A stretch of 64,000 bases of DNA from Bidens hawaiensis (lineage: Eukaryota; Streptophyta; Magnoliopsida; Asterales; Asteraceae), in NCBI GenBank assembly GCA_021521415.1, contig JAIQDT010005476.1, positions 1-64,000 on the forward strand, given 5' to 3'. This document shows positions 1-43,716 of this stretch, one piece after another. Within the stretch, counting starts at the first letter, position 1, and every line of letters starts with the position of its first letter. The notes under the pieces were generated by a model. It saw only the letters and a program-made list of their open reading frames with translations, ran no database searches and was not told the DNA's origin. The position numbers were made by a program, and so were the translations under genes.

Positions 1-1
1 C

Positions 2-638
2 CTAACTACTTCAAGACCTGATATCATGTTTGATGTACGTGTGTGTGCAAGATTTCAGTCAAGTCCTAAGGTCTTTCACATGACAGCAGTCAAAAGGATC
101 TTTAGATACTTGAAGGGAAAGCCTGATTTGGGGATTTGGTACCCAAAGAACCAACCCTTTGACCTGATTGCTTATACTGACAGTGACTTTGATGGGTGCA
201 ACATGAGCAGGAAGTCAACCTCTAGTGGATGTCAATTTTTGGGAGACAGGCTAGTGTCTTGGCAGTGCAAGAAACAAACTATAGTGTCCATCTCAACTGC
301 TGAAGCTGAGTACATTGCTGCATCTGCCTGCCGTGCACAAGTTCTTTGGATTCAGAATCAAATGCTGGATTATGGTCTGAATTTCCTGAACACTCCTATT
401 TTCATTGATAATACTGCTGCATTTTTCATTGTTAAGAATCCAGTACAACATTCTAAGACCAAGCACATTGAAATTAGACATCATTTCATTAGGGATTGTA
501 ATGAAAAAGGTCTAATTGAGATGAAAAGAGTTGATACAAGTGATAATTTGCTGACCTATACATAAAACCACTTGATAGAATGAGGTTAAACTTTCTCTTG
601 AAAGCCCTGGGGATGATCAACTCAGATGAGGTCTGATT
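2..638 (+). pseudogene. copia pol fragment: RT tail and RNase H
   Basis: The open frame enters from the left edge and reads through typical copia motifs: [18 protein letters not shown], the RNase H block YTDSDFDGC, the AEAEYIA block, and the [16 protein letters not shown] block. It closely matches the end of the minus-strand pol at 22397-24124. After about 548 the frame is lost (stop at 563-565), but the last residues of pol, ALGMINSDE, are readable in another frame up to about 638. One small deletion explains the break. RNase H would remove the RNA template during reverse transcription. It is non-functional here as seen. Confidence 0.92.
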
Positions 639-2310
639 AATGATGTGTGCTCTATGTGCTAATTGACTATATTGATTAAGGTTCTAAGTTATTATTGTGT
701 ATGTTTGAATATGTTACCGTTTGATGTTCACTGATGAGTGCTTAATTGATTATCTGTATAACTTAGGTATATTTGATGCTTAGGTTAATGATCAGTGAAT
801 ATTAGTGATGTTAGGATAAGTGTTAAGAATGATTAATTTGCATGTGTGTGCTTATCTGATATCTTGACTATGTGATTTATCTAATATGATGTTGTTAGGA
901 TTTGGTAGACTATGCATTTTGTGAAGTCTGCTTGTTTTGATGATGTCATGATTAAGATTTGAATATGTTACTTTCTGTTAGAGTCAAAATATGTTTTTGT
1001 GTTAAAATTGCATGCTAAAATGAAATTTTCAAATGAATTTGCCTAAAACATTTTTGAAAAAAATAGAGCAAGTTAATTAATGGTGCAGAGATATGATAAG
1101 ATCAGTTCAAAGCTTTATAGAAGCTTAAAAAGATTTTTTTTAAATGAAAAGAATCAAAAATGTTACTTTTGCTTAAAATTACGTCGGTTGCTCAAGTTAG
1201 AAGGACATATACTTGCATATGTTTGAACCTGTCATCTATTTGTATATTCACAGGATTGCCATTCACCTAAAGACTGAAAGCATTCGGGGCAATTGTGATT
1301 TGATTTTTATTTTTCTAAATTCTTTAACTTAAAATTATGCCAATAACTCTTAGTTGGAGGGGCATATAGTCTCATATATGTTTGGTCCTGTTAACCACTT
1401 GTAGACATATGGGATAGCCATTTATCTGAGAACTAAGAGTGACTAGGGTGACTGAGTTTTAAAATGTGTTTTTCTAAATTGAGAAATGATAGTACATTGA
1501 CTATTTGGCCAATTATATGGATTTAATATGCTAAAAAGACACTTATACAGTCATTAACATGTATGGTTGCTTTCCCATGATGTGTAAAATCTAAGGTGAT
1601 ATTAACATAAAGAAACTGCTAAGCTTAATGTGGAGTTACATTGTTGTCTATGCATGTTCCAAGATACATCTATCCGAATGATAGGCAGAAAAATGAATAT
1701 CCAGTCATACACGAGCCCGTTGGTATTTGGTCCCCAAAATGAAGTACTTATTGAGAATGACAAAGAACACAAGTGAACAAAATGTACTGATTAAACAACA
1801 CAATGTTGTTATATATGTTCACAATCATATGATAAAAAAAAATTAAATAAAATCATAAGTTGTGTCATGAAAAAGTTTTTACCAAATATCCGGGGGTGAG
1901 AGCCAAATCGGGGTGATCTGAAGAAAGCCAAATAAGCCTTGAGAATAGATATGAAGCATTAGAAAGCAATATGTGTTATCCATTTAGTATTATGCATCTT
2001 AAATGAACCTTAATCATATCACTAAAGAAATAAAATTCATGCTAAGTCTAAACCTGCTGTTAACCTGTCTATACTGTCATAATAATGCTGAGAATGAAGT
2101 ATTGAGAAAGCAACTTAGTCAATATGATCCCATGATTGAGATCTTTTCATAAAAATAAAGAAAAATGATTTGAACGGAAAGATAACTGAAATTTGAACTT
2201 TTAATGCACCATTTGCTCTTAAACAATGTTTTTTAAAGATAAATATGTTTGACAATTGGTTTAAGAAAAAAAGAGTTGCATTTTACCTTCAAAAGGTCTG
2301 AATATGAATT
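639..2310 (+). other. conserved non-coding spacer downstream of pol
   Basis: There is no convincing reading frame over about 1.7 kb. Many blocks match the reverse complement of 20400-22396 in the minus-strand element. Examples are the blocks around 1250-1440 (GGATTGCCATT...), around 1895-1945 (the GGGGTGA...ATCGGGGTGATCTG stretch) and around 2030-2150. Non-coding sequence kept between two diverged copies may carry RNA signals such as packaging or structure. That function is inference. Confidence 0.7.
1180..1445 (+). repeat. imperfect ~165 bp tandem repeat in spacer
   Basis: Two diverged units lie in tandem. Unit one (about 1180-1285) reads GGACATATACTTGCATATG...GGATTGCCATTCACCTAAAGACTGAAAG. 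Unit two (about 1340-1445) reads GGGCATATAGTCTCATATATG...GGGATAGCCATTTATCTGAGAACTAAG. The minus-strand element shows the same doublet around 21395-21625, so the duplication predates the split of the two copies. Confidence 0.65.
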
Positions 2311-2319
2311 TTCGAGTAA

Positions 2320-3455
2320 GGTTTGATGTTTTATAACCTTTTCGAGCAAACTTAGACATTTTGGTTTAAGTTTATCCTTTTCGAGCATGCTTTGAAGTTT
2401 TTACATGTTTCGGGTAGAGTTTACTGTTTTACTTGAAATTTAACTTTCCTAGCAAGCTTGATATTTGTTTAAATCTGAATATGATGTTTCTAGCAAGCTT
2501 TTATATAGTTTATACTTTCTAGCATACTTAGCTGTTTTGATTGAAAGTACAACTGTTTCTAGCAAGCTATTTGATATGATTGATTACACTGTTCACTAGC
2601 AAGCTTTGTTGATTTCTAAACCTTCTAGCAAACTTAACTGTTTTATAGGCTGTTTAGGTCATACTAGCAAGCTTTGTGATTGAATTTGTTACTTCCAACA
2701 AGCTTTAATGTTTTTGGACTTTCTAGCACACTTAGGTGTTTTGTTTGACTGTTTGAACTTCTAGCAAGCTTTGTGATTGTAATTTTGAATGTGCTTAGAA
2801 TACTTGTTTCTGGTAAACTTTCATGTTTTAACTGTTATAAGTACTTGTCTAGCATAGTTCATAATTGTGAATTTGATTCTTTGAAATTACAAGTGTTTTC
2901 GGGCAAACCTAGTTTTCCGAGCACACTTTATGTTTCGGGCACACTTTGAATTCCTCAAGTGTTTCCTTAACATGCTTGGTAATTTCAAAACCTTACTTTT
3001 CGAGCACAATTTGTGTTTAGAGTCCTTCTCTAGCACACTTTGTATTCTTGAAGTATATCAAGCATACTTTGCTTCAAAGTATACTTGATTGAATATTCGT
3101 TAACTGTTTATGAAATTTCGAGTAAGGTTTGTGTTATTCAGAAATTTGAGCAAGCTTGACTTTAGAAATATGTCTAAGATATTATTTTGGGGCTCTTAAT
3201 TGATTCCCAGCAAGGTTGCATACTTGATATTTTATACTTGATTATTTGTCTTGTGATTCATTTCTCGAGCAGTCTTGTATTCGAGTAAGCTTCCTTCATT
3301 TTATTGACTTAGCTTTATTTCTAAATACTTTATAATTTCTGAAATAATTCTGGAACGAGCAAGCTTTGAAAAGGTGGAAAATACCTAGCAAGCTTTGTGA
3401 AAACTCACTTTTTCGTGAAAGGTTTACTAAACGAACTTTACCGAGCAAGATTTTA
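2320..3455 (+). repeat. array of degenerate AGCAAGCTT-type motifs
   Basis: By eye I count about 30 copies of a 13-15 bp motif with the forms tCTAGCAAGCTTTG, tTCGAGCACACTTTG and tTCGAGTAAGGTTTG, spaced about 20-60 bp apart and all in the same orientation. Between them the sequence is AT-rich and unremarkable. The same motif occurs in reverse complement at about 18770-20370 in the minus-strand element and inside the LTRs (for example 8845-9090 and 49310-49560). It is not a regular tandem repeat. It could be a binding-site cluster. Confidence 0.75.
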
Positions 3456-3545
3456 AATGAGAATATATTTAAATGGATAATGTTACTGTTTGACAGCTAT
3501 TTACTCTCTAAATGACATAATGCATTTAAAACCCACTTTCAAAAA

Positions 3546-3557
3546 GATATAAGAGAG
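3546..3557 (+). promoter_or_regulatory. TATA-like box upstream of env-like gene
   Basis: GATATAAGAGAG lies after CCCACTTTCAAAAA and is followed by a pyrimidine-rich stretch (tctctctctccttct). The minus-strand copy has GTATAAAAGAGG in the same context at about 18625-18637. The distance to the first intron-like donor is about 143 nt here and about 153 nt there. The conserved position in both copies supports a real internal promoter. No transcript data are available. Confidence 0.55.
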
Positions 3558-3690
3558 GGAGTTAAAGAAATTTTTACCACTTTCATCTCTCTCTCCTTCT
3601 ACTTTTGCTCTCGTTTCAGAATCCCAACCGACTTAATCAAATTAACTCAAATTCCTAACCCTAATTAACCTGCCCACACAATCCGACTCG

Positions 3691-3910
3691 GTAAGCATCA
3701 ATTAAGTGTTTTTCGACAATGATTATGTGACTATGGGCATTTAATCTTCATCTTTACTAACTCTTTGTTTCTTGTGTAGGTTATTAATTTGTCGAAGATC
3801 AGGTTCTTAAAGAAATTTCTTCTTATCTTCTTCAAATTATAACTTAAAACTATTCAAAGATATGAACTTTATAACTAATCTTTGCTTTGAATGTGTTTTC
3901 ATTTGAACAG
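3691..3910 (+). other. two candidate introns in leader of env-like gene
   Basis: Intron 1 would be 3691-3779 (CCGACTCG|GTAAGCAT ... TTGTGTAG|G). A 23 nt mini-exon follows at 3780-3802. Intron 2 would be 3803-3910 (ATCAG|GTTCTTAAAG ... TTGAACAG). The start codon follows two bases later, at 3913. The minus-strand copy has the same arrangement with intron lengths 93 and 109 and the same 23 nt mini-exon, and all four splice dinucleotides are kept. Splicing is inferred from conservation only. Confidence 0.5.
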
Positions 3911-3912
3911 AT

Positions 3913-6900
3913 ATGGCGGATGATGAACCGACATATCCCTTGGAGCACAAGCATAATATGTGTGCTCTAGTACAAGTGACTCCATATAATGAGGAGGTAT
4001 CTTATATGATCAGATGGCTCAAACGATCAAATATACCATTTGCATTAACAGAGTGCCCTGTTCTCTATCGAAATCATCTTTTAGATTTCTGGCGCTTAGC
4101 CAAATTACATGATGATATAAATGGTAGGCGTCTGGAAGCTGCCGTGGCCACTCACGAGATCAGGATTACTGAATGACTGATCCGTACATGCCTACAATCA
4201 CATGATGATGACCATAACCCAATAAACTTTACCACTGATCATTTGTTGAGGATTTTTACACAAACAATGGGTTATCAAGGGAACGTCAAAGAAGGACAGT
4301 TCCAGAAAGGCATGTTCCCAAACCTGTATAGGTTTTTGATTCACCACACCATTCAGGGCTTTGCCCCTAGGAAGGGATCATAGACTTATATGAGTTGGGA
4401 CATATCAAATGCAACAGTTGCTGTTGTATATGATCTTCCGTTCAACTTCTCAAGAATGATCATGTTGAGGAGGCCCGACAAAGAAAAGTTCTTAGTCTAT
4501 CCCAGATTCCTTCAAATTATCTTTAATAATGAATTGCAAGATTTTCATACTCTGGGAACAACTCATGTGCTCCAAAATCCAAATGTATATAAAAGTATTG
4601 GTAACTTGGCAAGCACAACGCCGATTAAATCCAGGAGCTGAGTTTGATATACTTCCTTGGTTGGTTAATCATAATGCAGATATTATGCCGGTTCCAGAGT
4701 TGATCTCTGAGGAGGAAGAGTAGGATGGTGAAGAAGTGGATGATGATTCTGATGGAGGAGATGGAGATATTGGAGGAGTTGGAGATGACATGGAAGTTGG
4801 AGAAAATGTTGCTGCTGATGCACAAGTTCACGGGGAGAATCAACCACTACCTACACCACCAGCCACACCACCTTCCTCACCACCACCATATGACCAAACT
4901 AACCAATCCCCACCCATCCAAACACCACCCACCTATGCCCAAAGCCAATCTAAAACCCAAGACCAAACCTTAACCCAACTGTTAACCCAAACACAAATCT
5001 TTATACATGACCTAATCCACCCACAATCCCAAACCATAAACCCTATACCCTCCACAAGTACCCAAAACCCACCTACTGATCCAATCCAACCTTTACCTGA
5101 ATTATTCCCTGATTCACCACCACAAACCTCTCCCTCCGGTACTTATTTGTTTCAAAGGAATATTGACTTGATATGTGAAAACTATGATTTGAAAAGGAAG
5201 AATGCAGAGGTATTGAAGGAAAATGCGGAGCTGAAGGAACAGTTGGCCCAAGCTTTACTAAAAATTCAAGCCCTGGAGGCTGAGGTTGAGAAGACCTCAC
5301 CTGTACCAAAAAAAGGGGATAATATCCCAGTAGCCACTGTTGTTAATGAAGAGATGACAAATGTTGAGGTAAATGTTGAGGCTGATGGGTTAAAGAACAT
5401 TTTGAATATGTATGATAGTGATGATGATGAAAGTGGTGTAAGAGGTATTGATGAAGACGGGTATGAAGGAGATGATTCGGATGGAGGTGAGCAAGAATAT
5501 GATGCCCATGAAGTAGTTTCAAAGAAGAAAGTTATAAATGTGGAAAGGGTGAATGAAGAAGAGAAGGAGACTGATGCTGAAATTGAATAATCAAACTACT
5601 GATAATATAGTGACTATAGAAGCAATATCAACTGATGCTATTGCTACTGATGTTTTGACTGATGCCATTGCCACTGATGTGATGGATGAGGGTGCAGCAA
5701 CTGAGGAACTGACCCTAACTGAACAAGAAACAAATGAAGAAATTTCCAAGAAGGTTAAGCATGATAAGGAGATGGAAGATTTGATGGATGATATTGATAA
5801 TTTCCCACCTGATTCAGAAGAGGAGAAAAGAAGGAAGGAGAAGGGAAAAATGATAGTTGAATCCGAATTTGATGATGAGCATGTTAATACAAAGGATGTG
5901 AATGTCGAGGATGAAGAAGATAAGGATGCTCAGGCTGCCAAGAGGCATGCAAGTATTGTAAATGAAAAATTGGATTGGGAATTTATTGCCCAAACCATGA
6001 CTGTTGAAGAATTGGCTGAGCAAGAAACACTAATTGAACAATCTAACATTGCCAAGACTTTTGATCAAGAAGGAAATGTGGAGCAAGAGGTGATTGAAGT
6101 ACTCATCAAAATTAAATAAGCTGAGGAAGTTGACAACACCTTAGCATTGGTTATAAGCAAGTTTGCTCAACCTGAAGCACCAACCACTACTAAAAAGGTT
6201 TCTGATGAAACTGATAATCAAATGGTGGTAGATGAGGCTGAAGAATCAATTACTGCACATCTTAGCAAGAAATGGATTGAATATGCAAAGAAACTTGCTG
6301 AGGAAGACAAAGGAAAAGGTGAAGAAGATGATCAGAAATTTGGAAAGAAATATACCAGGAAGAGGTGCAGATATAATGGCCGTGATCATAGTGATGATGA
6401 AGTGGATAAGAAAAAGGCTAAGAAGGATGGTGATCCTGAGTATTTTGTTGAAAGCCCTGTGATGGCTGTTCCTATTCAAGTGGTTATGCCTGATGCTAAA
6501 CCAGACATGTATGAACCTAGAATAGAAGCACTTAATGACTCAACTGAACAAGATGATGATACTGAAGTTGATGAAAGTGATGAGGATGATACTGATGATG
6601 ACAACAATGATGATGACAATGATGATGGTCAATGTGATAAGGTTGAAAAAGTTGATATTGTATCCCCTCAAATTGAACTAACTGATGAACAGAAGGCAAA
6701 TATACAATAAAGTCTGAATGAGGCAAGAAGGAATAATCCTTTGGTGATAAGTCTGATAAGACTTGGATATGGATTTGAAAATTTGGCTCCTTTATCTGCT
6801 GAGGAGTTGCAAAAGTTGATTAATAAGGAGGATTATGAAATCAGGAAGAGGGTTGAAAAGCAAAATACAGATTCCATGAAGTATAGAGAATATTTGAGAA

Positions 6901-8600
6901 GGCATGGTTTGAATGAAAAAGATTTGAGCAGAATGAGTTTCAATGATTTGGAAAGACACTAAAATTTGACTAGAGAAACTATAGAGAGAGAAGAGAAGGA
7001 AAGATTGGCTAAAGAAGTAAAACATACTTAAAAGATCAATGAATTGTCAAAAAGATTTGGTGGAAAGTGTAAATATTTTATTGATAGAGGAATGGCTCCA
7101 GAATTGGTTGACAGTTTGACAAAAGAAAAGGTTGAATCTCATTTTAGAAGACTATCCATGAAAGATCAACCAGAAACTTCTACCAAGAAACCAAGACTTG
7201 TAACTTTTGCTGAGAAGAGTAAGATTGAAAAAAAATGGGAAAATGAGCAGTTGGAGCTGTTGAACAGATTGATGGAGGCAAGGGGGAGACTCAGTGAACT
7301 TGAAGGTATGAGCAGAACAGACAAACTGGCTCTATACATGTCTGAAATTGAAAAAGATGATATGGAAAGAGCTGAAACCTCAAAATCTACTATCCCTGAA
7401 CAAGTCAAACCAGAACCTATAGAATACAAAGTTCAATGGGAAGATGAGGAGATGATCAAGACCCTGAAAGGAATAATGAAAAATAAGGGTATGAAAGAAA
7501 ATGCTTTCGATATGCTGGGAAAAGCACAATTGAAATAGTTGTTTCATGTAGAAAAGGCTGAATGGGAGACATTATTAAAAGAGGAAAGGAACCCCAGAAG
7601 TTTTGTTGCTGTACCTGGTGGAGTAAGGTTTGTACCAGCCGGTCAGCTTGTGGATGAAAATATGATGAATATGATTGGAAGATTATTCAGAGATGGAGGT
7701 GAATATCTTCTGGATCTGTTGAATATGCCAGTGGAGATGGTGATCTCCATGTATAAGAAGAAATTTGAAATAGTGGGGGCCACTAAACCTATGAAGTCTT
7801 TTCCATCAAGGCCCTCAGCTTCAAGAGGACAAAGCTCTACAACAAGAAATGAGCCAAGAAGAGCTGAACCACAAAGACAAGAAAGGCCACCAACTGATGT
7901 GGACCTACCAATAAAGCTCTTCTATGACTCTGTCTCTCACACATTGAAAGTGATAATGAAACGTAGAGAATTGAGAGAGATTATTTTTAAAGATGATTTT
8001 GCAGACTGCAAGAAAAAGCAACTTGAAAAGATGGCAACTCTGGAGTTGTATGACTACCACAACAGGAACAAACTTGCAGGTAGGCAACAAAATGAGCTGT
8101 CCAAGTATCTCAGAAGTGAAGCATGGATGCTATTCCCTTTGTTGAAACAAAAGAGGAAGTGAAACTTTTCCAAGTATGAAAAGACAAAGAGAGCCAAGAA
8201 ACTCAGTGACATAAAGCATGCTGAATTTGGCTACATCTCAAGAATCAAGAATAAAAACCCACTTTCCAATTTGAACACTTGCATCAGTATGAGAAGGCAA
8301 ATGACAAGGCCCAACCATGAATTCTAGAAGAATGGTAGGATTACCCAAATTGACTACAACAGAAATGATGATTCCTACATTCTTCGCAACTCTGATGGAG
8401 TTATCTTGGGTATTATCAAGACTGATGAAGATCTGACCTTTCTACAAGATAAAGATTTGAAAGACATAATGAAATGGAAACTTCCTGTGAACCATCCTCA
8501 TCAACATAAATTGTTTATCTTCTAGGAAAAGGCATGATTTGTAAGAGTGAATAGAAGACAAGCAGCCTCAAGCTCCAGAAGATGATGAAGATCTATTTTA
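3913..8600 (+). pseudogene. env-like third gene, coiled-coil protein (broken)
   Basis: The gene starts at ATG 3913 (MADDEPTYP). Similarity to 18254-13860 minus runs along its whole length. Order: a globular N-terminal region (to about 4720) with IPFALTECPVLYRNHLLDFW; a Pro/Thr/Gln-rich stretch (about 4840-5130); a coiled coil (about 5160-5290); long Asp/Glu-rich and Lys-rich charged regions (5350-7540); and a C-terminal part with NPLSNLNTC and SYILRNSDG. Stops lie at 4174, 4381 and 4721; frame changes occur near 4560-4620 and 5590. From 5553 to 8600 a single frame is kept with stops near 6117, 6708, 6960, 7029, 7536, 8160 and 8325. I see no signal peptide or membrane segment, so 'env-like' describes only its position. 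Function unknown. Confidence 0.8.
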
Positions 8601-8761: not shown

Positions 8762-9906
8762 TGTTAGGTCAAAGATTTGACATGATATGACTTAAGGGAG
8801 ATTGGAATCTTCTCAACACTCCTCAAATATGGCTAAGTATGGATACCGAGCACACTTGGACCTCCTAGGAAGGTTTTACTTGTCCTAGCAAGGTATTTTG
8901 CTCTCCGAGAAAGATTATCTTCTTGAAGTCTTCTTAAGTGTGAATCCGAGCAGCGTTCACTTTGTCTAGCAAAGGTGTTCTTCAGTCGAGCATAGTTTTC
9001 TTACTAACAAACCCTTGACTAAACCAAGCTTATGAAGCCAAGTATTTGGAAGATCTAGCAAGGTTTGATTAATAAACAGTAGTCCGAGCATGCTTGTAGA
9101 AAGTTGATCAAGAAATATTCTATGTACTTTCTCTAGCAAAGTTCTACTCCGAGCAGGCTACAATGCTATCAACACAAGTCAAACAGTGTTACCAGCACAC
9201 TTGAGTTTGCTCAATAAGTTATTCATTAACAAAGAGTTGAAGAGATTCATGAAGAATAGTTTGCTCTTAGGACCATATCAAGCCAAGTTTTCTATGGTCA
9301 AAAAGATTGATGTCTTCTAGGTGAATATTTTCTAAGGAAAATATTCTAAGTAAAGTCTACCGGGAGAACTGTTCCCCAGCACACTTTGGTTACCAAGTCT
9401 ACTCAGAAATGACAAAAGATGCAAAGCTTACTCGAAGACTTGTTTTTACACTTATAATCTTTTGTATTATGTTTTTATGATTATGTATCAATCATTAGGG
9501 TTTCTAGAAGATAGGACAGCTGTCAGGAGGCAGGCCTATAAATAGAATGATCTAGGGCACGCCTCCTAATGATAAGCAGAGAACGGATAATCCTTTACAC
9601 TTTTCAAACCTACTAAATATTCCTGAATTTAGTGTGATGGCTGTCCTAAGAATTGTACGAATAAACATTCCTTACAGAAACCCTAATTGATTTTCATTTG
9701 TATGAATATTTCTATAAATGGAAATCTTTTGAGTTAATGTGTGTGTCTGTTGCATTGAAGCAACAATCTTGTGTGTTAGTGATTCCGCCGTTAACATATT
9801 TTTATTCTTACCTAAAATAGCAAGTCGTTAACCCTCTTGGCGACACATTACAGTGTGGGTTGCGATATTAATAGTGATTGATTGAGTGATCAAAACGGGA
9901 CCGACA
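8762..9906 (+). mobile_element. 3' LTR of + strand copia element (1,145 bp)
   Basis: The LTR starts TGTTAGGTCAAAG directly after the PPT and ends GGGACCGACA. It is clearly related over its length to the solo LTR at 49230-50316, and more distantly to the LTR pair at 12468-13699 and 27830-29061. A TATA box lies at 9537-9544. About 15 bp upstream of it is the palindrome GACAGCTGTC. The array motif (CCGAGCACACTTG, TCTAGCAAGG) recurs in the first 450 bp. The following bases ATGAA would be the target duplication, but the other flank is outside the window. Confidence 0.9.
9537..9544 (+). promoter_or_regulatory. LTR TATA box
   Basis: TATAAATA in the context AGGCC-TATAAATAGAAT. The same context is present in the other family LTRs: 28201-28210 (minus strand, intact), 12829-12850 (altered) and 50004-50011 (TATAAGTA). 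It would drive the genomic transcript; the start site should lie about 30 bp downstream. Confidence 0.7.
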
Positions 9907-12467: not shown

Positions 12468-13699
12468 TGTCAGGTCCCACTTTTATGGTCGATTCGGCTC
12501 GGATCTTTAATCAATCATGTCATAACTCACACAAAATTAATCGTGTTGACAAGAGAGTTAATGACGGGTTACTATATTTAGAAAGATGACCATTTGTTAA
12601 AGGCGGAATCAATAACAAACATACGGTTGCAATGAATATTCAAAGATAGAAGACACACAAAGGATTCACTCAAAAGATTTCCATTTATATAATGTTAGTC
12701 ATACAAAAGGAGTAATCGATTTAGGGTTTATAAGGAATCCTAGGACAGCCGTTACACACACAAAATATTCTCAATTAATGTGTCGTGTGTATTCTGTCTC
12801 TCTGTCTCCGTCTCTCTCGGCGGCGTGCCTTAATTATTCTATTTATTGGCCTGCCAACCTAAGACAGCTGTCATTCCTTCTAGAAACCCTATCCGATAGT
12901 ACATATTCAAATTACATATTCAAAAATAAAACTAAGTGTAAAACAAGTCTTCCGGGTAGGCTTTTCATTAAACTTCAGTCTCCGAGTACGCAGTGTACTC
13001 GGCCTTCCTTCAGACTTGGTAAACATAGAAATGTACTCGGAATCAGTTTCCGGGTAGACTTTACTTAAAGAATATTTTACCAAGTAAAATATTCACCGAG
13101 TAGACTTCAATCTTCTTGGACTTATCAAACTTTGCCCGACAAATCCTTACGAGCAACCTTGTTCTTCTATGGTCCTGTTCGGCTCATTGTCATTGAATAA
13201 CTTATTGATAAGGCGTACTCGAGAATACATACCTTACTTGAGCAGAACCTTACTCGATATAACTTAGAGATATTCCATTAACTCATCAAGTATACTCGGA
13301 CCATAATTATTAAAGAATATCTTGCCCGGTCTTCCAATTACTTGGCTTCTTGGACTTGGTTGACCATACCCTACTCGGAAGAGTAAAATACCTAGTCTTG
13401 AAGAACAATCCTGCTTGACAAAGTGAACCTTGCTCGGATATGCCAAATCAATGATCCTTACTCGGAAAATCAATAAAAAGCATACCTTGCTCGGATATCC
13501 ACTTAAGAAGTCTATTTGAAGTAAACCTTGCCCGGGAGGCAAAATCTCATACTCGGCTAAGTAAAAGCTTACTCGAAGGTCCAAGGTGTGCTCGGATTCA
13601 ATACTTAGCAGTTTCTGAGGAGGTTGAGAAGATTCCAATCTTCCATATTCTTCGTTTTCGGTCAAATCTCCTCCTTTGGGTCAAATTCTTGACCCAACA
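12468..13699 (-). mobile_element. 3' LTR of minus-strand copia element
   Basis: It runs from TGTCAGGTCCC to GACCCAACA on the plus strand and is the direct partner of 27830-29061, with the same length and about 98% identity by eye. The plus-strand open frames near 12778-13068 and the minus-strand frame near 13264-13665 are chance frames present in both LTRs. The TATA box differs from the 5' LTR copy (reads CAATAAATAG instead of CTATAAATAG on the minus strand). Confidence 0.95.
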
Positions 13700-13710
13700 A
13701 TCTCCCCCTA
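13700..13710 (-). other. polypurine tract
   Basis: On the minus strand it reads TAGGGGGAGAT directly before the 3' LTR start TGTTGGGTC. It is identical to the tract at 8751-8761. Confidence 0.9.
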
Positions 13711-13859
13711 GATTGGAACACCTCAGCTGACCCAAAACACTCTGTGGTTGCATACACTTAGCAAAATACACATCAAATTAAAAGTCAAATTTCATAATCA
13801 AATTACATAAGCTAAAGTTTGTCCGAAGACATTACAAAGCAAAGCCTATTCTATCTCTT

Positions 13860-16800
13860 TTATCTTTTCCTTTCATTGTAGGCTGCTTGTCTTCTCAGCT
13901 GGATTATAGATGCTGCTCTTTCTCTGAAGATATTGAGCACTTGGTAGTGAGTGTGTCCTTCTGGTATCACCAAGTCTCTTATATCTCTAAGATCATCATT
14001 GTGTAAGCATGTCAGATCTGCATCCTTTTTGATTGTTGCCAAGGCCTTTCCATCAGAGTTCCTCAGCACATAGTAACCAGTGTCTTCTTTGTATTCAACT
14101 TCAGTGATGACACCGTTCTGCACTATATAGTTTGGCCTTCTCATTCTTCTTCCCACTCTTATACACGTATCCATGTTAGACAGTGGATTCTGGTCTCGGA
14201 CACTTATCTGGTAGTTCAGTTCAGCCCTGTCCATTTTCTTCCGTTTCTCTGACCTTTTTGACCTGTGGAGTTGAATCATTCACCAACTTTTCTTTTCTTT
14301 CAAAAATCTGAATCCATCAGCAGCCTGTTCCTGCAAGTATTTTGATAAATCATTCATCTGTCTTCCTGCTGATCTGTCCCTGTTTCTGTAGTCATACAAG
14401 TGAAGTGTGGCCATTCATTATAATTGATCTTCATTATACTCACGGAAGTCACTTCTGACTACAATCTCTTTTAATGACCTGCTCTCCATAATCACTTTAA
14501 GTGAATTAGTGACTAAATCATAATACAGCTCTCTGGGTAGATCCATATCAGATTGTGGTCTTGTTCTGTGTTGTACTGAGCTGCTTGATTCTCCTCTTCC
14601 TCCTTGGCCTCTTCCTTTTGGAAATCTTTGATGAAATGGAGGTCTGATTGGGATGGATTTCCTTGGCTTTTCAGGAACCAAATTGAATACTTTCCTGTAT
14701 GCACCTTCTACCATTTCAACTAGCCAATTCTCCATGTCTTTGATATTCTCCCCCAGCTTTGTGAAGGTCATTCAGCATTTTGGCAATTTCCATAGTGTTT
14801 GCAAACCTAGCTGGCACAAACCTGCCATCTGAAAAATATCTTGGGTTTTCACCCTTCCTTAATACTTTCATCCATTCCTCCTTCTGGTAGTAAAACAGAT
14901 TTCTCAAGTCAATCCTTTCCAGTGCATCAAAATCAACCTTAGTCATCCCCCTTTCATTTATCATTATGTTCCTCAATATCCCAATCATCTCTTCATTTTC
15001 CCATGGCACAATCTCTTCATCATCAAGTTTAACCTCAGGCTGTTCTGGCTGAGGGATTGGAGGTTGATCAGTTGTCTTTTCTTGTTCCATCTCCTTTTCC
15101 CTCACAGTCCTGAGTCTTCTTGTTCTTTTAGTAGGTGGCTCATCAGATGTTTCTTTTAAGATTGAGCTCTCAGTATAGACCCTTTTTAATTCTTTCTCTT
15201 TCCTTTTGGAATACTGGTCAAATACTGCCTCTCTACTCAGATTTCTTACAACCTCAGGCTTCATGCCTTTCTCAAGCAGGTATCCACACATACCATCATA
15301 TTTCTTCTTTAACTCTTCCAACTCAACCTTATCATCCTGTTTTACAAACTTTTCTGAAACTATCTCTTTCTCACTGTTGTAAAGATCTTGAATTTGGTCA
15401 ACAGTGTATTTTTCCAAGGCAGCTCCAGGATAGCCTCTAACTTTCAAATAATTTTTATAATGCTCAGCATTTTTCTTTCTCTTCTCAACCTTCTTTAAGA
15501 CTTCCTCTGCATTGATTTCAATGTAGCCCCTTTAAATATAAGTCTTTTCAGGTTGAGGGGTCTCAGCAGTGGAGCTTGTACCAACTTTCTCTCCTCCTTG
15601 ATCAGGGTTGTCATCACCCTTTCCATCAGACTCCTCAGAGTCATCCTCCTCATCATCTGATAAATCAATCATGGCATCTATTTTGGGTTCATCAGAGGTA
15701 GGATGATCTGGTTCATCATTATTTTTATTTTCATCAGAAACATTAACATCAGGGACCCCTGGTAATTTTTCTCCTGGTTTCAGTGTTTGTAAGGGGATTG
15801 CCCTGATTGGTTCATCATCCTCTGGGGTCTCCACATAACATTTATTCTTTTCATCCCATATACCCCTCCTATCAGCTCTTTCAGCTTCAGCCTGCTCAGC
15901 AGATCTCTTCCTTCTTTGATAAGTCTTTTCAAAACTTCTTTCTGGCCAGTTACTAGTAGGGTTCTTTCTCAAGTCCTCTTTTACTTGTTTAGCCCATTTC
16001 TTGGCAGCCATAGATGCAATTGACTCACCAATTTCCTCAGGTATAATCATGTCAGTGTTTAGATTGGTTGATGGTTCAGCAGTCTCAGATTGTTGCTCCT
16101 GAAACTTGCTAACCACCCTTCCCAAAGAGTCATCAAACTCTTGATTTTTGTTCATATTTACTAAAATTTCAATCACCTCTTGATCTGCCACATCTTGAAA
16201 TATCTCTTTTGCTACACTGGCTTCTTTGATCAATAGGTCCTGCTGTGCTAACTCTTCTTCTGTCAAGGAATGGACAATTGCTTCCCTTTCCATTGGCTCT
16301 TTAATAAGTCTTTCTTTCTCAGCAAGAGCAGCATCAGCAGCAGTATCTACAAAGGATACATCCTTCTCAACTTACACAATAGGTTCATCATCAGTTGCTA
16401 AACATTTTCCCTTTTCCTTCCTTTTCATCACCTCTTCTTCATCCTCTTGCTCATCACTTCCAAACTCATCAATCTCTCTAAATAGGTTTTCCAATTCAGA
16501 GTCATGCTCTACCCTCTTGGAACTAGCTTCTTGATCATCATTTGGCTCAGTGTGTTCTAGTTCCTCAGTAGCAGCATTCAATTTTACATTCTCCACACTC
16601 ATCTCCTCATCCACAATCTCAGTCAATTCTTCTGTAAGTACAACCTCTTCATCATCATTGGTTACTTCTTCTCTCACATCCATTACAGATTCATCACTAT
16701 CATCATACTCATTCATGATCATCTTCAAACCATCAACATTTTCAACAATTACAGCATCAGCTATAACCACATCATTATCATCTATATTCTCCCCCTGTTT

Positions 16801-18254
16801 TGGGGTAGCTGAAGTCTTCTCAACCTCCTGCACCAGGGTTCGAATCATCATTTCTGCCTCAGCTAACTTTCTCAATAAATTTCATTTTCATCTGTTAGTT
16901 CTTCATTCTTCCTACTCAATACAACATTCTCACCCCTAACCTCCTCAACTTGTCTTTTCAACTCATCATTTTCCAACATCAACTCAGCATTTCTTTAGAA
17001 CATATCCACCTGTGAACTTGTAGGGTTTGATGTAGTAAATGGTTTGTGGTGGGTGTTTGAGTTGGGCTAGAAATGACTGGATCTGATTGGTTTGGGCTAT
17101 GTGTAGGTGATGTCTGTGGTGGTGATAATTGAGGTGTGGAAGTTTCAGGTTGGTCTAGGGTAAGGGTTTGAGGTGGTGATTGATGTGGTGGGGTTGGTGG
17201 TGGTGAGTGTGGTAGTGTAGGGATAGGTTGTTCAAGTTCTTCTCATTGCTCCCCCTGTTCAGGTGCCATAATCTCCATCTCCAGACCAACTCCACCTTCA
17301 TTGCCATCAACATCATCATCAGAATCTCCTTCATCACTATCATCATCACCCCCTTCTTCCTCTTCTGAGCTCAGCTCAGGCACAGGCATTATAGCCAGAT
17401 CATGGTTTAACAACCAAGGTAAAATTTCAAAAGGAACATTTGCATTAAAGTTATTAGAGACACCTGGATTTTTTATTCTCTTGTAAGCATCAGGATCTTG
17501 CAGTTTATGTGTGACTCCAAATGTTGGTAAATCTTGTAATGTGCTGTTGAATATGATCTGCAGGAATCTTGGGTACTGTAAAAATCTTTTTCTTTCTGGT
17601 TTCTTCAGATTCCCCACTAACCCCTCAAATATCATCTTGGAAAAGTTAAATGGTAGATCAAAGATTGTACCAACAGTGGCATTTGCTAGATCATGACTCA
17701 TCAGAGTCCATGATCCCTTCCTCGGAGCAAATCCATGAATAATGTGGTGAATCAGAAATCTGTACAGCATTGGAAATAAACCTTTCTGAAACTGTCCTTC
17801 ATGGACATTTCCTTGATACCCCATCGTTTCTTTAAAAATCTTCAATAAGTGCTTTGTATTAAAGTTTATTAGATTGTGATCATCGTCATTCAGTCTTAAA
17901 CACCTTCTTATCATCCTTTCAGTGATCTAAATCTCCTGTCTGGGCACGGTTGCTTCTATTCGTTTTCCATTCACATCGTCAACGAGCTCTGTTGATCTCC
18001 AGAAATCCAAGGAGTGATTTCTGTAAATAATTGGGCTTTCAGTGAGTGCAAAGCTGATGTTTGACCGCGCCATCCATAATATCATTCGAGCCATCGGTTC
18101 ATTCTCTGTAATACATAAAAAGGAGATTTAGATCACTGAAAGGAGTGATTTCTTAAACACCTTCTTTTTTTTTGACTTGATTATGTGTCACATGTAGTAA
18201 CGCGCACATATTGAGCTTTGGCTCAGAAACATACTTCGGTTCGTTGTCTGCCAT
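13860..18254 (-). pseudogene. env-like third gene of minus-strand copia (broken)
   Basis: ATG at 18254 (MADNEPKY). Readable blocks in order: ISFALTESPIIYRNHSLDFW near 18050; 17914-17243 (TMGYQGNVHEGQFQKGLF, ending in an acidic Glu/Asp stretch); a Pro/Thr/Gln-rich linker (17240-17030); and coiled-coil and acidic parts in one frame from 16875 to 14716, with stops at 16372 and 15532. A frame change near 14740 leads to 14771-13860 with the end domain (NPLSNMDTC, GYYVLRNSDG). A further frame change lies near 17240-16900. The total is about 1,400 codons, far longer than usual retroviral envelope proteins, with no membrane segment seen. An 80 bp insert disrupts the N-terminal part (18104-18184). Function unknown. 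Confidence 0.82.
18104..18184 (-). other. patchwork insert inside env-like gene
   Basis: The + strand copy (around 3978-4000) reads straight through here, while this copy has about 80 extra bases. The pieces match four nearby places: CTTAAACACCTTCT (also 17895-17908), GGAGTGATTTCT (also 18011-18022), AGGAGATTTAGATCACTGAA as the reverse complement of 17917-17937, and CTGTAATACATAAA (also 18257-18270, the intron-2 acceptor). It looks like filler made by template switching; alternatively the acceptor copy makes it a pseudo-intron. Confidence 0.6.
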
Positions 18255-18256
18255 AT

Positions 18257-18638: not shown

Positions 18639-18769
18639 ATTTTGAAAGTGGGTTTTAAATGCTTTTTGTCCTCTTGTGAATTATTAGCTGTCACCCAGTA
18701 ACATTATCCACTTGGTATATCAAAAACATTTAATTTCATTTAAGATCATAAGACCTTACTCGAAGGCTT

Positions 18770-20370
18770 AATATATCCAAAATCTACTCGGTCAACTTCC
18801 ACTTACAAACCTTACTCGGTCAAACTTTGCTTGGAATAATTTTCAATTTGGAATATACAAAGTTTGCCCAAATTCTTTTATTTTCAAACCATGCTCGATC
18901 AAGTAAATTAATTTAAAGTTAAGACATAATGAAGAAAGCTTACCCGAAATACTTGATTTCTTGAGAGATTAATCACAAGGCAAATAATCAAATATAATTA
19001 TCAAATAAACATTCTCACTAAGAATCAATTAAGATCCTCACAAAGATTTCTCAAATTCAAATTAAAACTTATCTAGCATGAACCCTAATAAGAATCATAA
19101 TCAATTTTATCATATTAACTAACATATTCAATCAACGCATTCATTCAAGTATGAATCTAAAAAATTTCATCATACCATCTTACATATTCGATCAACGCAT
19201 TCATTCAAGTATGCTTGTATACATAGTGTGTTCGAGCACTCTTTCAAATGTAAAGTGTGTTCGGACAACAATCTTATGTAAAGTATACCCGAATAACTTT
19301 CATATAGTACAAAGTGTGCTCGAAAAGAAATTCTAGCAGACAGTGTACTCGGAAAGTTAAAGTTTGAAATTACCAAGTATATTGAAGGAACACAAGTGTA
19401 CCCGAAATATAAAGTGTGCTCGGAAAACAAAGTTTGCCCGAAAAGACTTGTAATTTCAAAGAAATCATAACCACAAATATCACAGAGCATGCTCGAAATG
19501 AAATTAAACACATAAACATTTAAGTGTGCTATAGTTTAAAATTTCATAGAGCTTGCTCGAAAATCCTAAGTTAGCACTGAGCTCGCTACGATAAACACAT
19601 TCAATCATCAGGTATGTCCTTACTCGAGGAAACTCAACATTTCAAACCATACCCGAAACATGACAAACTTAAACGGTAACATCTAAGCGTGCCCGGAAAG
19701 ATTAACAAGCCTTTCCTAACAACATATTCACACAAAGCTTACTCGGTGTACTTACTCAAGTTCACAAAGTTTGCTTGGAAACACAATCAGCATATAACAT
19801 GAATAGCTTACTCGAAACTAGCATATAACATGCATAGCTTGCTCGAAACAAGAATTTTTTGTTAAAAGACAGCTATTTCAACACATAATCATCTCAAGAC
19901 TTCAAGCTTACTCGGGAAAATGAGTGCAACAGTGTACTCTACTCGAAAAGTGTAAATACTTCAAAGTATGCTCGAAAATCATAAAGTTAGTCAGAAATGA
20001 CTAAGCCTACTCGGAAAGGTTGAGATTTTTCAAACCTTACCCGAAACAACATATTCACACATAATCAAGTCAAAAAAAAAATGACTAAGCTTATTCGGAA
20101 AGGTTGAAAACTGTCAAACCTTACCCAAAACAACATATTCACACATAGACAACTGTTTTGTACTCGGAAAGGTTAAACCTTACCCGAAAATACATATTCA
20201 AACAGTTTGTGCTCGAGAAGGTTATAAATCATCAAACCTTACTCGAACTTACATATTCACACATAATCAACTGTTTTGTACTCGGAAAGGTTAAACCTTA
20301 CCCGAAAATACATATTCAAACAGTTTGTGCTCGAGAAGGTTATAAATCATCAAACCTTACTCGAACTTAC
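18770..20370 (-). repeat. array of degenerate GAGCAAGCTT-type motifs, minus copy
   Basis: It is the counterpart of 2320-3455. On the plus strand the units read CTTACTCGAAA, AGCTTGCTCGAAA, AAAGTGTGCTCGAAA and AACCTTACCCGAAA, several dozen times and in one orientation. The core here is tcGAGCAAGCTTt or tcGGGTAAGGTTt on the minus strand. Spacing is irregular. No reading frame is present; short open frames near 20158-20467 come from the tandem duplication inside the array. Confidence 0.75.
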
Positions 20371-20376
20371 ATATTC
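20151..20376. repeat. near-perfect 118 bp tandem duplication
   Basis: AACTGTTTTGTACTCGG starts at 20151 and again at 20269, and the two units look identical over the readable overlap of about 108 bp. It adds motif copies to the array and must be recent. Confidence 0.9.
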
Positions 20377-20399
20377 AACCTATTTTAGGCAAAATGCAA

Positions 20400-22396
20400 C
20401 ACTTTTTGACTTAAACCACTTGTCAAAGACATTTCTAAGTTATGTATCATTTCAGAACATAGTTTAAGTGCAAATGGTGCATTTAGAGATCAAATTTCAG
20501 TTATAATTCATTTTAAAACAATATCTTTATTAAACTGAAAAGATCTCAGGAATGGGATCATATTGACTAAGCAGCTATCTCATTACTTCACTCTCAGCAT
20601 TATTATGACAACTTAGATAGGTTAACAGCAGGTATAAACTTAGCATGATTTTCATCTCTTTGGTGATATGATTAAAGTTCAATTTGAGCATAATGCAATA
20701 ATGGTTAACAATGTGCTATGATGCCTCATATCTCTCCTCAAAGCTTATTTGGCTTTCCCCAGATCACCCCAATTTGACTCCAACCTCCTGTATTTGGTCA
20801 AAAATAGTTTTTGTATGACAGAACTTATTGTATTTTTTTAGATTCAAACATATATAGAGGTTGAACGTTGGACTTACAGTTAGCAACATGCCTTTCATTC
20901 AAGATGAGACAGATTTTGCCAACATCTTTGTAGTTCTTGTTGTAACCCTCTTGTTTGATAAAATATTTAAAACACTTATCAACTTTTGGTTGATTTATTC
21001 ATTCTTCCCCTTGTTTTTGATATTTTCTCAAATTTTCTTAAGCATGTTCTTTGTCATATTTAAAGATGTTTCCTTTTGGTTGACCAAATAACAACAGGCT
21101 CGTGTATGACTGGGTAATCACTTTTCTGCCATATCATTCGGAGAGATCTATCTTGAGACATGCAAAACAACTATGCATCTCCACTTAAAGATTAGCATAT
21201 TCATTATGTTTATATCACCTTAGATTTTAAATCATCATGGGAAAGTAACTATACATGTTATTGACTATACTAAGGCCTTTTTTTTGCCTAATAATTCCAT
21301 ATGAGCAGCTAAGTAGTCAATGTACTATCATTTCCCATAAACACAGTTTAATATTCAATCACCCCAATATCTCTTTCTTATCAGGTTAATGGCTATCTTG
21401 TTTTGACCAAAAGTGGTCAACAGGACCAAACATACATGTGAATATATGTCCTGTCAAAGTCAGAGTTATTGACATAGTTTTAAGTGAAGAAATAAGAAAC
21501 AAGGCATAATTGCCCCAAATGCATTCAGTTTTCAGGTCAATGGCTATCCTTTGAATCTGTAGAGATTTAAGGACCAAACATACACAAGTGCATGTCCTTC
21601 TAACTGGGCAAATGACATAATTTTCAGCAAAAATAACTACTTGAGACTTTCCCTTTAAAAAAAATCCTTCTTTTAAGCTTCTTAAAAGCTTGAACTGAAT
21701 AATCTTATCATATCTCATCACCATTAATCAACTTGCTCATGTTTTGACCAAAATATAGTATTTATGCAAAATTCATTATAAAATTCAATGAATCACTTAA
21801 TTTTGACATAAAACTCATTTTGACACAAACAGTTGCATCACATACTTAAATCTTAAACATTCTTAACATCATCAAGAAAAACAGACTGTACTAACATTCA
21901 ATGTCTATCCTATCTTAACAATTTCAGAAGATCAGATTAAGAACATATTCAAGTAACCTAAACATGTGATTACTCATGACATCATATAAGCATTCAGTTT
22001 CACCTAAACAGATCAAACTACTTATCATAACATCAGATCAGTTAACATGATAGTCAAGAATTACCATCAATTTCAAGCAAATCAAAACATATTAAATAAC
22101 ATTTAATATGTTTAATCTCAAGCACCTATCAGTTAACATCAAAACAGTGACATAATCAAAACATATTAAATAACATTTAGTTGAAACATATTCAATATGT
22201 GTAATCTCTAATAAAATAATCAGTTATCACAGAGATACACACATAGAAATAGTTAAGTCACATAACATTTAGCATACTCAGTAACATATTCAGCAACATA
22301 TTCAGCAACATATTCAGCAACATATTCAGCAAGTGTAACCTCTAATAAAATATTCAAGTAGAACATAGAGGTACCCAACCAAGCACACATCCTTAA
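20400..22396 (-). other. conserved non-coding spacer, minus copy
   Basis: No gene. It matches the reverse complement of 639-2310 in many blocks, including the doublet at about 21395-21625. Near the pol end (22070-22335) are short AT-rich repeats with CATATTAAATAACATTTA and AACATATTCAG. Confidence 0.65.
22280..22332. repeat. 12 bp tandem repeat AGCAACATATTC
   Basis: Four or slightly more units of AGCAACATATTC, the first with one change (AGTAACATATTC). It is a simple minisatellite in the spacer just after pol. Confidence 0.85.
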
Positions 22397-24190
22397 TCAG
22401 ATTTCATCAGAGTTGATCATCCCCAGGGCTTTCAAAAGAAAGTTGAATCTGGTTCTATCAAGTGGTTTGGTGAATAGGTCAGCCAAATTATCACTTTTAT
22501 CAACTCTTTGCATTTCAATCAAACCTTTTTCACTGCAATCTCTGATGAAGTGATGTCTGATTTCAATGTGCTTAGTCTTAGAATGTTGCACAGGATTCTT
22601 AACAGTAAAATATTCAGCAGTATTATCAATCAGAATAGGGGTGTTTAGAAAATTCAAACCATAGTCCAGCATCTGATTTTGAATCCAGAGAACTTGTGCA
22701 CAGCAGGCACATGCAACAACATATTCAGCTTCTGCAGTAGAGATTGATACTGTAGTCTGTTTCTTGCATTGCCATGACACTAGCCTTTCTCCCAAAAACT
22801 GGCATCCCCCTGATGTTGACTTTCTACTCATATTGCATCCATCATAATCACTGTCTGTATATGCAATCAGATCAAAGGATTGGTTCTTTGGATACCAAAT
22901 CTCTAAGTCTGGTCTTCCCTTCAGGTATCTGAATATTCTTTTAACAGCAGTCATGTGGGAGACTTTTGGATTTGACTGGAAACTAGCACACACACACACA
23001 ACAAACATGATATCTGGTCTTGTTACAGTCAGATACATCAGAGATCTAATCTTGGCTCTGTATTCATGCTCATCAACTGACTCCCCCTTTTCATCAGCTA
23101 TCATCTTTTCTTTGGTGTCCATTGGAGTTGAAGCAGTGTTGTAAGCATGACAGTTGAACTTATTCAAAATGTCCTGCACATACTTAGTTTGATGAATGAA
23201 GATCCCTTCAGCCTTTTGTTGAACTTGTAGCCCCAAAAAGAAGTTCATTTCACCCATGGAACTCATGCTGTACTTGGACTTCATCACCTCTTCAAACTCC
23301 AAACACATATTTTCATTTGTTGATTCAAAGATGATATCATCAACATAGACTTGTAAAAGCAGCAAATCTGACCCTTTTCTTTTGTAGAAGAGTGTCTTGT
23401 CAATGGCTCCCCTTGTGAAACCATTTTCAAGTAAATGATTTGATAGCTCATCATACCATGCTCTAGGAGCCTGATGCAATCCATAAAGTGCTTTGTTTAA
23501 CTTATACACCCTGTTTGGATACATGGGATCCTCAAAACCTGGTGGTTGAGTCACATACACTTCTTCATCAATCTTTCCATTTAGGAATGCAGATTTAACA
23601 TCAAGCTGGAATACTCTTATGTTCTTTGAGGCAGCATATGCAAGGAAAATTCTTATGGCTTCCAGTCTTGCAACTGGTGCAAATACTTCCTCAAAGTCTA
23701 TCCCTTCTTCTTGAAGACATCCCAGTGCTACAAGTCTTGCTTTGTTCTTAATCACCAAACCCCTTTCATCCCTTTTGTTTCTGAACACCCATTTGGTTCC
23801 AATTGCATATCTGTCATGTGGCTTGTCTACAAGATCCCATACATGTAAATCTCTAAACTGGGCCAATTCCTCTTGCATAGCCTCTACCCAACTGTTGTCT
23901 TTTAATGCTTGAGCAATATTCTTTGGTTCTAATTGGGATAGAAAGCAAGAGTAAAGACAGATGTTTGCTATCTCAGAATGACTCCTTGTTACTCTTTCAT
24001 GCAAGTCACCAATGATATTTTCAGCAAGATGATTCTTTTCAACAAAAGGAGTTTGTATTATCATATTTGTAGACAAATTTGTGTAAAGATTTGATTCATT
24101 AAGTTCAGGTTCTTCAATGATCAAATCAGCTTCTGCATCATGAAACTCTGGTGCTTCATCATTGTTTTGTCCTGAAGTAGATGCACCATT
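22397..24190 (-). pseudogene. copia reverse transcriptase and RNase H
   Basis: The longest clean frame in the element runs from 24124 to 22397 (575 codons) without a stop. Copia-type [14 protein letters not shown], then GTKWVFRNK, the [12 protein letters not shown] block, and the catalytic YVDD near 23330-23345. RNase H follows with YTDSDYDGC, the AEAEYV block, then [14 protein letters not shown] and ADLFTKPL, and the protein ends [11 protein letters not shown] frameshift near 24190 separates it from the integrase part. Together with integrase it would copy and insert the element; it is dead here because of the upstream breaks. Confidence 0.95.
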
Positions 24191-27527: not shown

Positions 27528-27810
27528 TTTGAGAAAACAAATATCAGTTTCTTATAAAAAGTTTTCAAAATAATCAGATCTGAAACCAGAATGCTCAGAT
27601 CTGATGTGTCTGATGTGATTAGAACAAGATTTAGATATAAAGATTAAAACTTTAAATGAAACAAGGAAGAGAAAACACCGGAAAATTGTAGATCTGAAAG
27701 AAAAATGAAAAACAGGGCAGCTGACATCACAAATCAATCGAACAGTGCTCTGCTTACGTTATTCTTCTTCAAATCTTCAATCAGCAACAATCTTTCTAAA
27801 AAATAGCAGT
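27528..27810 (-). other. 5' leader of minus-strand copia
   Basis: Between the PBS and the gag start. No frame of note. It would hold the packaging and dimerisation signals, but none can be shown by eye. Confidence 0.6.
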
Positions 27811-42777: not shown

Positions 42778-43716
42778 CCCTACATCAAATAAATAGTTCG
42801 TCAAACCATTAATCTATCATAGTACTCAACCAAAAACCTAGGTAGTATAAAAGTTTTAGCTACTCTTAACAAAGTACGAAACAAAAATAATATATGAATA
42901 ATCTTTCATAAAAAAAACACAAAAAGAGTGACCTTCGATTTTGCTTCCTACTTGCTCCAACAATAGCCACACAAACTCAACGCGTCCCTCCTTTCTTTCT
43001 GTTTCGAACCTCACGTGAACACCACCACACAAAACCCGTTTTTTTGTTCTGCTTTGACTTCACTTCTAAAACTCCACAACCCTTATTTTATATATGATTT
43101 TCTTTTTCTGCGAACTCCCACCAAACCAAAACCTAAAACCCAAAATAATATCTCTCCTTTTTGGTTTATGTAAACTTCCCAACACAAAACAAAATATGAA
43201 CCACCAAAAAGTATTATATATTATGTTATGTTTTGCTCGCTACCCAACACAATCCGCCGAACCTCTTTCTAATAATTCCCCTTTTTCTTTCGGCTCTCTT
43301 TTTTTATTTATAATAATAGTGTTGAGTTTTTATTTTATTTATTTCTTGTGGGCCCATCTCATATGTCTTGTAAAATTTGAAGTCCATTTGAAATAGTTCA
43401 ACGAGCATCCCTGCACTTTGTAAAGAAATAAAACTCATAAGTAACTGAAGCATGGTTAACGTGGAATTTTATATTTTAATAGGCATGTGAACATGAAACT
43501 CCACAAAATATGTGACCATTTTTTCCGCCAACTATTACTTTGATGCCATTGTGGTCTTAAGTTTTGCATAAATACTTTAATTTATCTTGTTTAAAAAATT
43601 AATCTTTAAAATTCAATTATGAGCCAAATAAAAATATATTCAATAAAAAACTGGCTCAAAAGACTTGAAACTGTAGAAGATATTTATATAATAACATGTA
43701 TATTTTTAACCATATA
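42778..43716. repeat. right arm of ~0.9 kb inverted repeat
   Basis: Reverse complement of 34129-35033 with small indels. It ends TTTTTAACCATAT at 43715. Open frames here (43094-43396) are chance frames of the same U3-like sequence. Confidence 0.9.

Follow-up and report, generated by a model that had tools for sequence, protein, structure and literature searches.

Spliced introns and a probable internal promoter in the leader of the third gene of Sirevirus-like elements from Bidens hawaiensis

The window analysed here, 64,000 nucleotides (nt) that form the first 64 kb of contig JAIQDT010005476.1 in the Bidens hawaiensis genome assembly GCA_021521415.1, contains two diverged, Sirevirus-like Ty1/copia elements that face each other. 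In both copies a spacer of 3–4 kb leads from pol to a third gene in sense direction, which runs toward the 3' long terminal repeat (LTR). The best explanation of its leader is that this gene is a transcription unit of its own inside the element, and we consider this likely. The leader contains two introns that flank an exon of only 23 nt. Both introns and the small exon are real: a genome-wide search (3.47 Gb in 15,902 contigs) turned up natural copies from which one intron or both are missing, with joints exactly where they were predicted. The initial annotation of this DNA had proposed an intron-containing gene expressed from an internal promoter. The splicing part of that proposal is borne out by these spliced copies, and the promoter part is supported indirectly by signs in the sequence, namely a TATA box, an upstream motif array like that of the LTR U3 region, and a leader free of ATGs.

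Leader introns and their spliced genomic copies

In the plus-strand copy, the internal TATA box (TATAAGAG) is located at 3548..3555. It is followed by the predicted exon 1 (3580..3690), which lacks ATGs and is CT-rich, most visibly at 3586-3600; its start is placed about 30 nt past the TATA box, while its end is fixed by spliced copies. Intron 1 (3691..3779; 89 nt) has GT-AG ends and a TACTAAC branch-like site, and is precisely absent in related copies. Exon 2, the 23-nt block, occupies 3780..3802, with both borders fixed by spliced copies, and intron 2 (3803..3910; 108 nt) ends directly before the ATATGG at 3911-3916 that includes the start codon (ATG at 3913). The minus-strand copy has the same arrangement, with the TATA box TATAAAAG at 18635-18628, intron 1 at 18481-18389 (93 nt), the 23-nt exon 2 at 18388-18366, intron 2 at 18365-18257 (109 nt) and the ATG of the third gene at 18254. 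All signals listed in the initial annotation (a TATA-like box, a pyrimidine-rich start, two GT...AG pairs, the 23-nt block and ATATGG) are thus present in both copies, and the lengths it gave, 89/23/108 and 93/23/109, are exact. Across loci that possess the respective intron, GT is kept in 47/50 and AG in 48/50 for intron 1, and in 67/70 and 64/70 for intron 2. In intron 1 the TACTAAC site stands 19–20 nt ahead of the 3' border (46 of 50 copies), and intron 2 has CTAAY ahead of its own 3' border in 65 of 70.

If the introns are real and are occasionally spliced out before reverse transcription, the genome is expected to hold copies joined at these exact bases. This is the case. The joined exon 1–exon 2 sequence had 100 genome matches at no more than two mismatches, 31 of them exact, and the joined exon 2–exon 3 sequence had 146 at no more than one mismatch; the reversed-pattern control returned none in either search. 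Thirty-nine of the 100 intron-1-less places were read (30 loci from the first junction search and nine more), and here intron 2 was also absent at the predicted border in 19 and kept in 20. A genome-wide count of all four classes with 35-nt patterns, allowing at most one mismatch (controls 0), found both introns kept in 2311 copies, only intron 2 lost in 72, only intron 1 lost in 33, and both lost in 27; these numbers are free of locus-choice bias, yet miss divergent subfamilies with more than one mismatch in 35 nt. At least one intron is accordingly lost in 132 of the 2443 scored copies (5.4%). The 27 double losses compare with 2.4 expected if the two losses were independent. Since the copies share descent, the corresponding odds ratio of 26 describes how strongly the losses are coupled and should not be read as a probability; the same applies to the Fisher p of 2e-23, which counts related copies as independent. 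Loss of intron 2 by itself was roughly twice as frequent as loss of intron 1 by itself (72 vs 33), although the donor of intron 2 looks weaker. A variant of the 23-nt exon containing AAACTTG is common to many of the intron-1-less places and is also seen in copies that have intron 1 and lack intron 2; this points to a subfamily in which intron-less copies are frequent.

The losses are recurrent. A quick tree was calculated for 89 loci with the intron columns removed; the first 50 loci (L001-L050) are the best full-length matches, a choice that favours intron-bearing copies, and the remainder (L051-L089) were picked by the intron-1-less junction. On this tree at least six state changes are required for intron 1 and 13 for intron 2, and sister loci differ in intron state in the starred pairs L061/L073, L070/L080 and L055/L058 as well as in L046/L069 (support 93). 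We infer that the direction of change was loss, because an intron is much more easily lost several times than gained several times at one and the same base. One group on the tree consists of six intron-1-less loci, so at least one such lineage has been amplified.

The surroundings of the intron-less copies bear on the question of which RNA was spliced and copied. In 26 of the 30 intron-1-less loci first read, spacer-matching pieces are found as far as the end of the 1.5 kb of upstream sequence fetched, or no more than 25 bases short of it. Shorter spacer matches were obtained for L061, L071 and L074, the last of which also has unrelated upstream sequence, and L054 has unrelated sequence directly upstream. 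The strict TATA pattern is found at the expected place in 28 of these 30 loci and in seven of the remaining nine. Moreover, all six intron-1-less copies tested, which were picked from the 39 read, have correctly oriented reverse transcriptase (RT)/RNase H sequence some 4 kb upstream. No retrocopy of third-gene mRNA of the long interspersed nuclear element (LINE) type, which would have marked the transcription start, was recognised among the first 30 loci, and with such flanks the intron-less copies examined have little resemblance to short-mRNA retrocopies. The presence of pol and spacer upstream implies either that splicing and copying affected a long, pol-containing RNA, or that a spliced short RNA recombined with it. 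Direct splicing of the long RNA is favoured over recombination because losses of a single intron are frequent. The initial annotation had also inferred that the introns survive retrotransposition through retention in the genomic RNA, and this is supported: 2311/2443 copies keep both introns, and the intron-less copies that were checked retain spacer and pol upstream.

Signs of an internal promoter

Directly upstream of the leader both copies carry an array of motifs of the type CGAGYAAG, with 10 copies at 2291..3545 in the plus-strand element (dinucleotide shuffles of this stretch gave a mean of 0.04 and a maximum of 1) and 25 copies, found by motif scan, at 18640..20429 in the minus-strand element. 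Nine more are present in the U3 region of the LTR, and none in gag-pol, the pol-proximal spacer, the R-U5 part of the LTR or the third gene. Dinucleotide shuffles of the arrays contained on average fewer than 0.1 and never more than one motif. The hexamer TGACAG precedes the internal TATA box by 58 nt in both copies, and the TATA box of the LTR by 25 nt. Within the minus-strand array, 20114-20377 is a tandem duplication with a 118-bp unit (2.2 copies, 95% matches), from which it follows that the array can grow by duplication.

The TATA box itself is well kept. TATAA is present in all 50 aligned rows (the two window copies and the 48 best-match loci), and among 20 plus-family copies the box is the best-kept stretch upstream of the introns, with an agreement of 0.97 vs 0.91–0.95 for its neighbours. 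The distribution of ATGs changes at the same place. Upstream of the TATA box ATGs are frequent, and only two occur from the box to the end of exon 1 in the 70 copies mapped, these being the 70 of 88 with the strict TATA pattern, which misses the TATAAG form. In exon 1 of 88 copies (all 89 loci except L054, which was dropped) there are two ATGs vs approximately 61 expected from composition, and exon 2 contains none in the same copies. Each intron, by comparison, contains ATGs in every copy examined (50/50 for intron 1, 69/69 for intron 2), and the predicted spliced leader is without ATG in all 50 intron-bearing copies. The ATG-poor zone hence starts where a transcript from the internal TATA box would. 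Taken from these sequence features, an internal promoter at this TATA box appears likely.

Expression of the third gene and alternative explanations

A stretch of up to 290 codons in the third gene shows purifying selection: comparison with the minus copy gives a ratio of nonsynonymous to synonymous substitution rates (dN/dS) of 0.04–0.25 at proportions of synonymous differences (pS) of 0.10–0.74, those comparisons at larger distances being saturated. Among near-identical copies dN/dS is 0.25–0.73, which probably reflects drift after insertion. Selection thus keeps a gene that is situated behind pol and a long spacer, and some route of expression is needed for it. In the route we consider likely, RNA polymerase II would start about 30 nt past the internal TATA box, driven by the upstream motif array that is otherwise concentrated in U3, and the capped transcript would end in the 3' LTR. 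Splicing would take out the upstream ATGs, so that ribosomes could reach the third gene. The long pol-containing RNA would now and then be spliced at the same leader sites and then reverse-transcribed, and the introns would persist because most of the genomic RNA escapes splicing before it is copied.

Several observations weigh against an independent transcription unit. As pol-containing RNA is apparently spliceable in this family, splicing alone is no proof of a separate promoter, and the transcription start near the internal TATA box is itself a prediction. The motif was defined by eye after the sequence had been read, so the motif tests were not blind, and in an 18-kb control stretch it occurs once per strand, which equals chance expectation. 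Since the depletion of ATGs was counted over related copies, the effective sample is much smaller than the number of copies. The donor of intron 2, GTTCTT, is weak, and the amplification of an intron-1-less lineage means that intron 1 is not essential. Furthermore, the expectation that among genomic copies the GT/AG pairs and the 23-nt block are more conserved than the gaps between them fails inside either subfamily. Measured as mean agreement at aligned positions for each family separately, GT/AG pairs, 23-nt block and intron bodies reach 0.90–0.95, 0.95 and 0.94–0.95 in the plus family, and 0.98–1.00, 0.98 and 0.99 in the minus family; drift in the copies seems to be uniform. The block stands out only in the comparison of the two window copies with each other, where 21 of its 23 positions are identical, while exon 1 reaches 0.78 and the introns 0.75 and 0.74 (0.59–0.64 for shuffled sequences).

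A competing explanation is expression by splicing of the LTR-driven genomic RNA, as proposed for Athila and BAGY2, in which case the internal TATA box would be incidental and the leader exons internal exons. This is a known route for env-like genes (Bousios 2010; Vicient and Casacuberta 2020), and the intron-less copies with pol upstream suggest that the long RNA is indeed spliced here. However, unless a further donor removes them, gag-pol and many ATGs precede the third gene on that RNA. The ATG-poor zone, moreover, begins at the TATA box, and a U3-type array is placed directly upstream of this box and in none of the other internal parts scanned, which leaves this route improbable. A different origin of the spliced sequences, in which reverse transcription switches templates between genomic RNA and a packaged, spliced mRNA of the third gene, would account for spliced leaders joined to spacer and pol, and an mRNA from the internal promoter, sharing its 3' end with the genomic RNA, could conceivably be packaged. 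Yet single losses (72 and 33) are commoner than double losses (27), so that partly spliced mRNA or several switches would be needed, and we regard this origin as rather unlikely. We give hardly any credence to the idea that DNA deletion between short repeats, and not splicing, produced the intron-less copies. Three-nucleotide repeats do flank both introns (GGT/GGT at intron 1, CAG/CAG at intron 2), and deletion between them would yield the same joined sequence, but the losses of the two introns are strongly coupled and recur on the tree, and no other deletion of at least 40 bp relative to the window copy recurred more than six times in 59 loci, apart from the effect of a private 76-bp insert (see below).

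Finally, leader and third gene may have been captured as a unit of promoter, introns in the 5' untranslated region (UTR) and coding sequence from a host gene. The TATA box, the CT-rich start, the 5' UTR introns and the small exon would suit the 5' end of a host gene. No clear host gene was found among the homologues, however, which are plant proteins named hypothetical, uncharacterized or synaptobrevin-like, some of them with PF20167, and we judge such a capture to be a distant prospect; it is compatible with an independent transcription unit, of which it would explain the origin.

The independent unit can be extended to a model with two promoters built from one motif set, which we put forward tentatively, at slightly less than an even chance. 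A U3-type array would serve in the LTR for the genomic RNA and internally for the third-gene unit, splicing would be largely confined to the internally started RNA, and the introns would act as a switch. If this were true, the introns would survive reverse transcription in approximately 95% of copies, and the third gene would be translatable only from its own mRNA.

Elements of the window, the third gene and related systems

The plus-strand copy begins within the end of pol at the window edge, which cuts it, and ends in a probable 3' LTR. The pol remnant (RT/RNase H; 1..565, with an open reading frame, ORF, at 2-565) shares 84.7% identity with the pol end of the minus copy. Exon 3 with the third gene spans 3911..8162, its frame broken by stops, and the probable LTR (8762..9781) is preceded by AGGGGGAGA at 8752 and shows 78% identity to an LTR-like stretch at 49230-50243. 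This stretch belongs to another plus-strand copia element and is followed at 50794-51559 by sequence similar to the gag region of the minus copy. The minus copy is delimited by a 5' LTR (TGTTGGG...TGACA; 27830..29061) and a 3' LTR (12468..13699) with 98.2% identity to each other, and by a 5-bp target duplication, TATGG. Its gag-pol frames (22397..27551) gave Pfam matches to gag, zinc knuckle, integrase and RVT_2, and the Ty1/copia type of pol was confirmed by PF07727 (1.7e-77), PF00665, PF13976 and PF14223. The primer site TGGTATCAGAG, 2 nt inside from the end of the 5' LTR, presumably fits tRNA-Met. Exon 3 with the disrupted third gene extends to the 3' LTR (13700..18256). The idea that the leader region is a nested LTR was rejected: the LTRs of the minus element are a separate pair, and similarity between U3 and spacer is only 21–28 bp long. 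Two further repeat pairs are found in the window, one inverted (34129-35032 and 42779-43715; 90.5% identity) and one direct (32244-33761 and 61287-62825; 77.9% identity).

In the third gene of the minus copy, 18109-18184 is an insert of 76 bp that is absent from all 29 other minus-family loci compared. Its final bases, TTTATGTATTACAG, resemble those of intron 2, and on visual inspection part of the insert is similar to a stretch farther down the gene, as if it had arisen by template switching. A Pfam scan of the six window frames of the third gene yielded no match, and no relatives of it or of RT were found in viral contigs. A profile search based on three sequences found 30 proteins, and the named relatives, from Tanacetum coccineum, Artemisia annua and B. 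hawaiensis, are called 'hypothetical', 'uncharacterized' or 'synaptobrevin, longin-like'. As the four proteins of the last designation (P0015, P0016, P0018 and P0024, from Tanacetum and Artemisia) are related to a retroelement gene, this name was probably given in error. Several relatives are annotated with PF20167, a putative plant transposon domain; the three that were rescanned matched it only below the curated cut-off. A structure model of relative P0001 from 24 sequences reached a predicted local distance difference test score (pLDDT) of 75.8 and had no structural match in the PDB at E<=0.001; an earlier model from three sequences (pLDDT 47) was not used. Nothing tested here supports calling the third gene an envelope gene.

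Like the Sireviruses SIRE1, HOPIE and Inga, the elements have Ty1/copia gag-pol, a primer site of the tRNA-Met type and a sense gene between pol and the 3' LTR; such an additional ORF was reported for 74% of SIRE elements (Neumann 2019). Both groups also have repeated motifs upstream of the LTR TATA box and upstream of the gene after pol (ENV in Sireviruses), those of the present family being of the CGAGYAAG type and the Sirevirus box a palindromic CGG-CCG. SIRE1 differs in that it uses stop-codon suppression, whereas the window elements show a TATA box and a two-intron leader. Unlike in Sireviruses, clusters of polypurine tracts beside the 3' LTR were not seen in a scan with two overlapping octamers; the minus copy has the terminal tract AGGGGGAG at 13702, and others at 16789, 17249 and 23081 lie away from the LTR. 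The copia pol, the primer site, the additional gene and the motif arrays in common make the family Sirevirus-like, but we do not file it as Sirevirus, since the octamer scan showed no polypurine clusters. A search of open-licence literature, which leaves out subscription papers, yielded no description of leader introns for the extra gene of a Sirevirus.

Foamy viruses offer the closest working parallel, as they have an internal promoter and also form proviruses from pregenomic RNA that has been spliced; here the promoter is predicted from sequence signs, and copies with pol upstream and an intron missing at its exact borders are likewise present. Foamy viruses are, however, animal retroviruses, and in their case a 301-bp stretch in the tas gene is concerned (delta-HFV proviruses), whereas here the introns are in the 5' leader. 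BARE1 of barley is a Ty1/copia element with a partly spliced RNA pool and an intron of 104 nt, but this intron is situated just after gag and serves Gag. In Ogre, a Ty3/gypsy element, the intron separates two parts of the polyprotein. Gene23 of Grande resembles the third gene as an accessory gene with a reported promoter of its own in a long 3' internal region, but Grande is a gypsy element and the gene is antisense. Athila and BAGY2 have an env-like gene for which splicing is reported or predicted; they also belong to gypsy, and the portions available describe a spliced element mRNA and claim no internal promoter.

How the gene after pol is expressed in plant Ty1/copia elements has been an open question for more than two decades. 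As related by Bousios 2010, an internal promoter for the ENV gene of Sireviruses was put forward as a hypothesis by Peterson-Burch and Voytas (2002), who could not identify one; the same account describes repeated boxes clustered in the LTR and upstream of ENV, with the promoter not conclusively identified. The family described here, with thousands of copies, supplies candidate promoter base positions together with demonstrated splice junctions. Because some of its copies lack the introns exactly, genomic copies can be used as a fossil record of RNA processing where transcriptome data are lacking. An independent transcription unit for the third gene would explain the expression of such extra genes in a way that can be tested.

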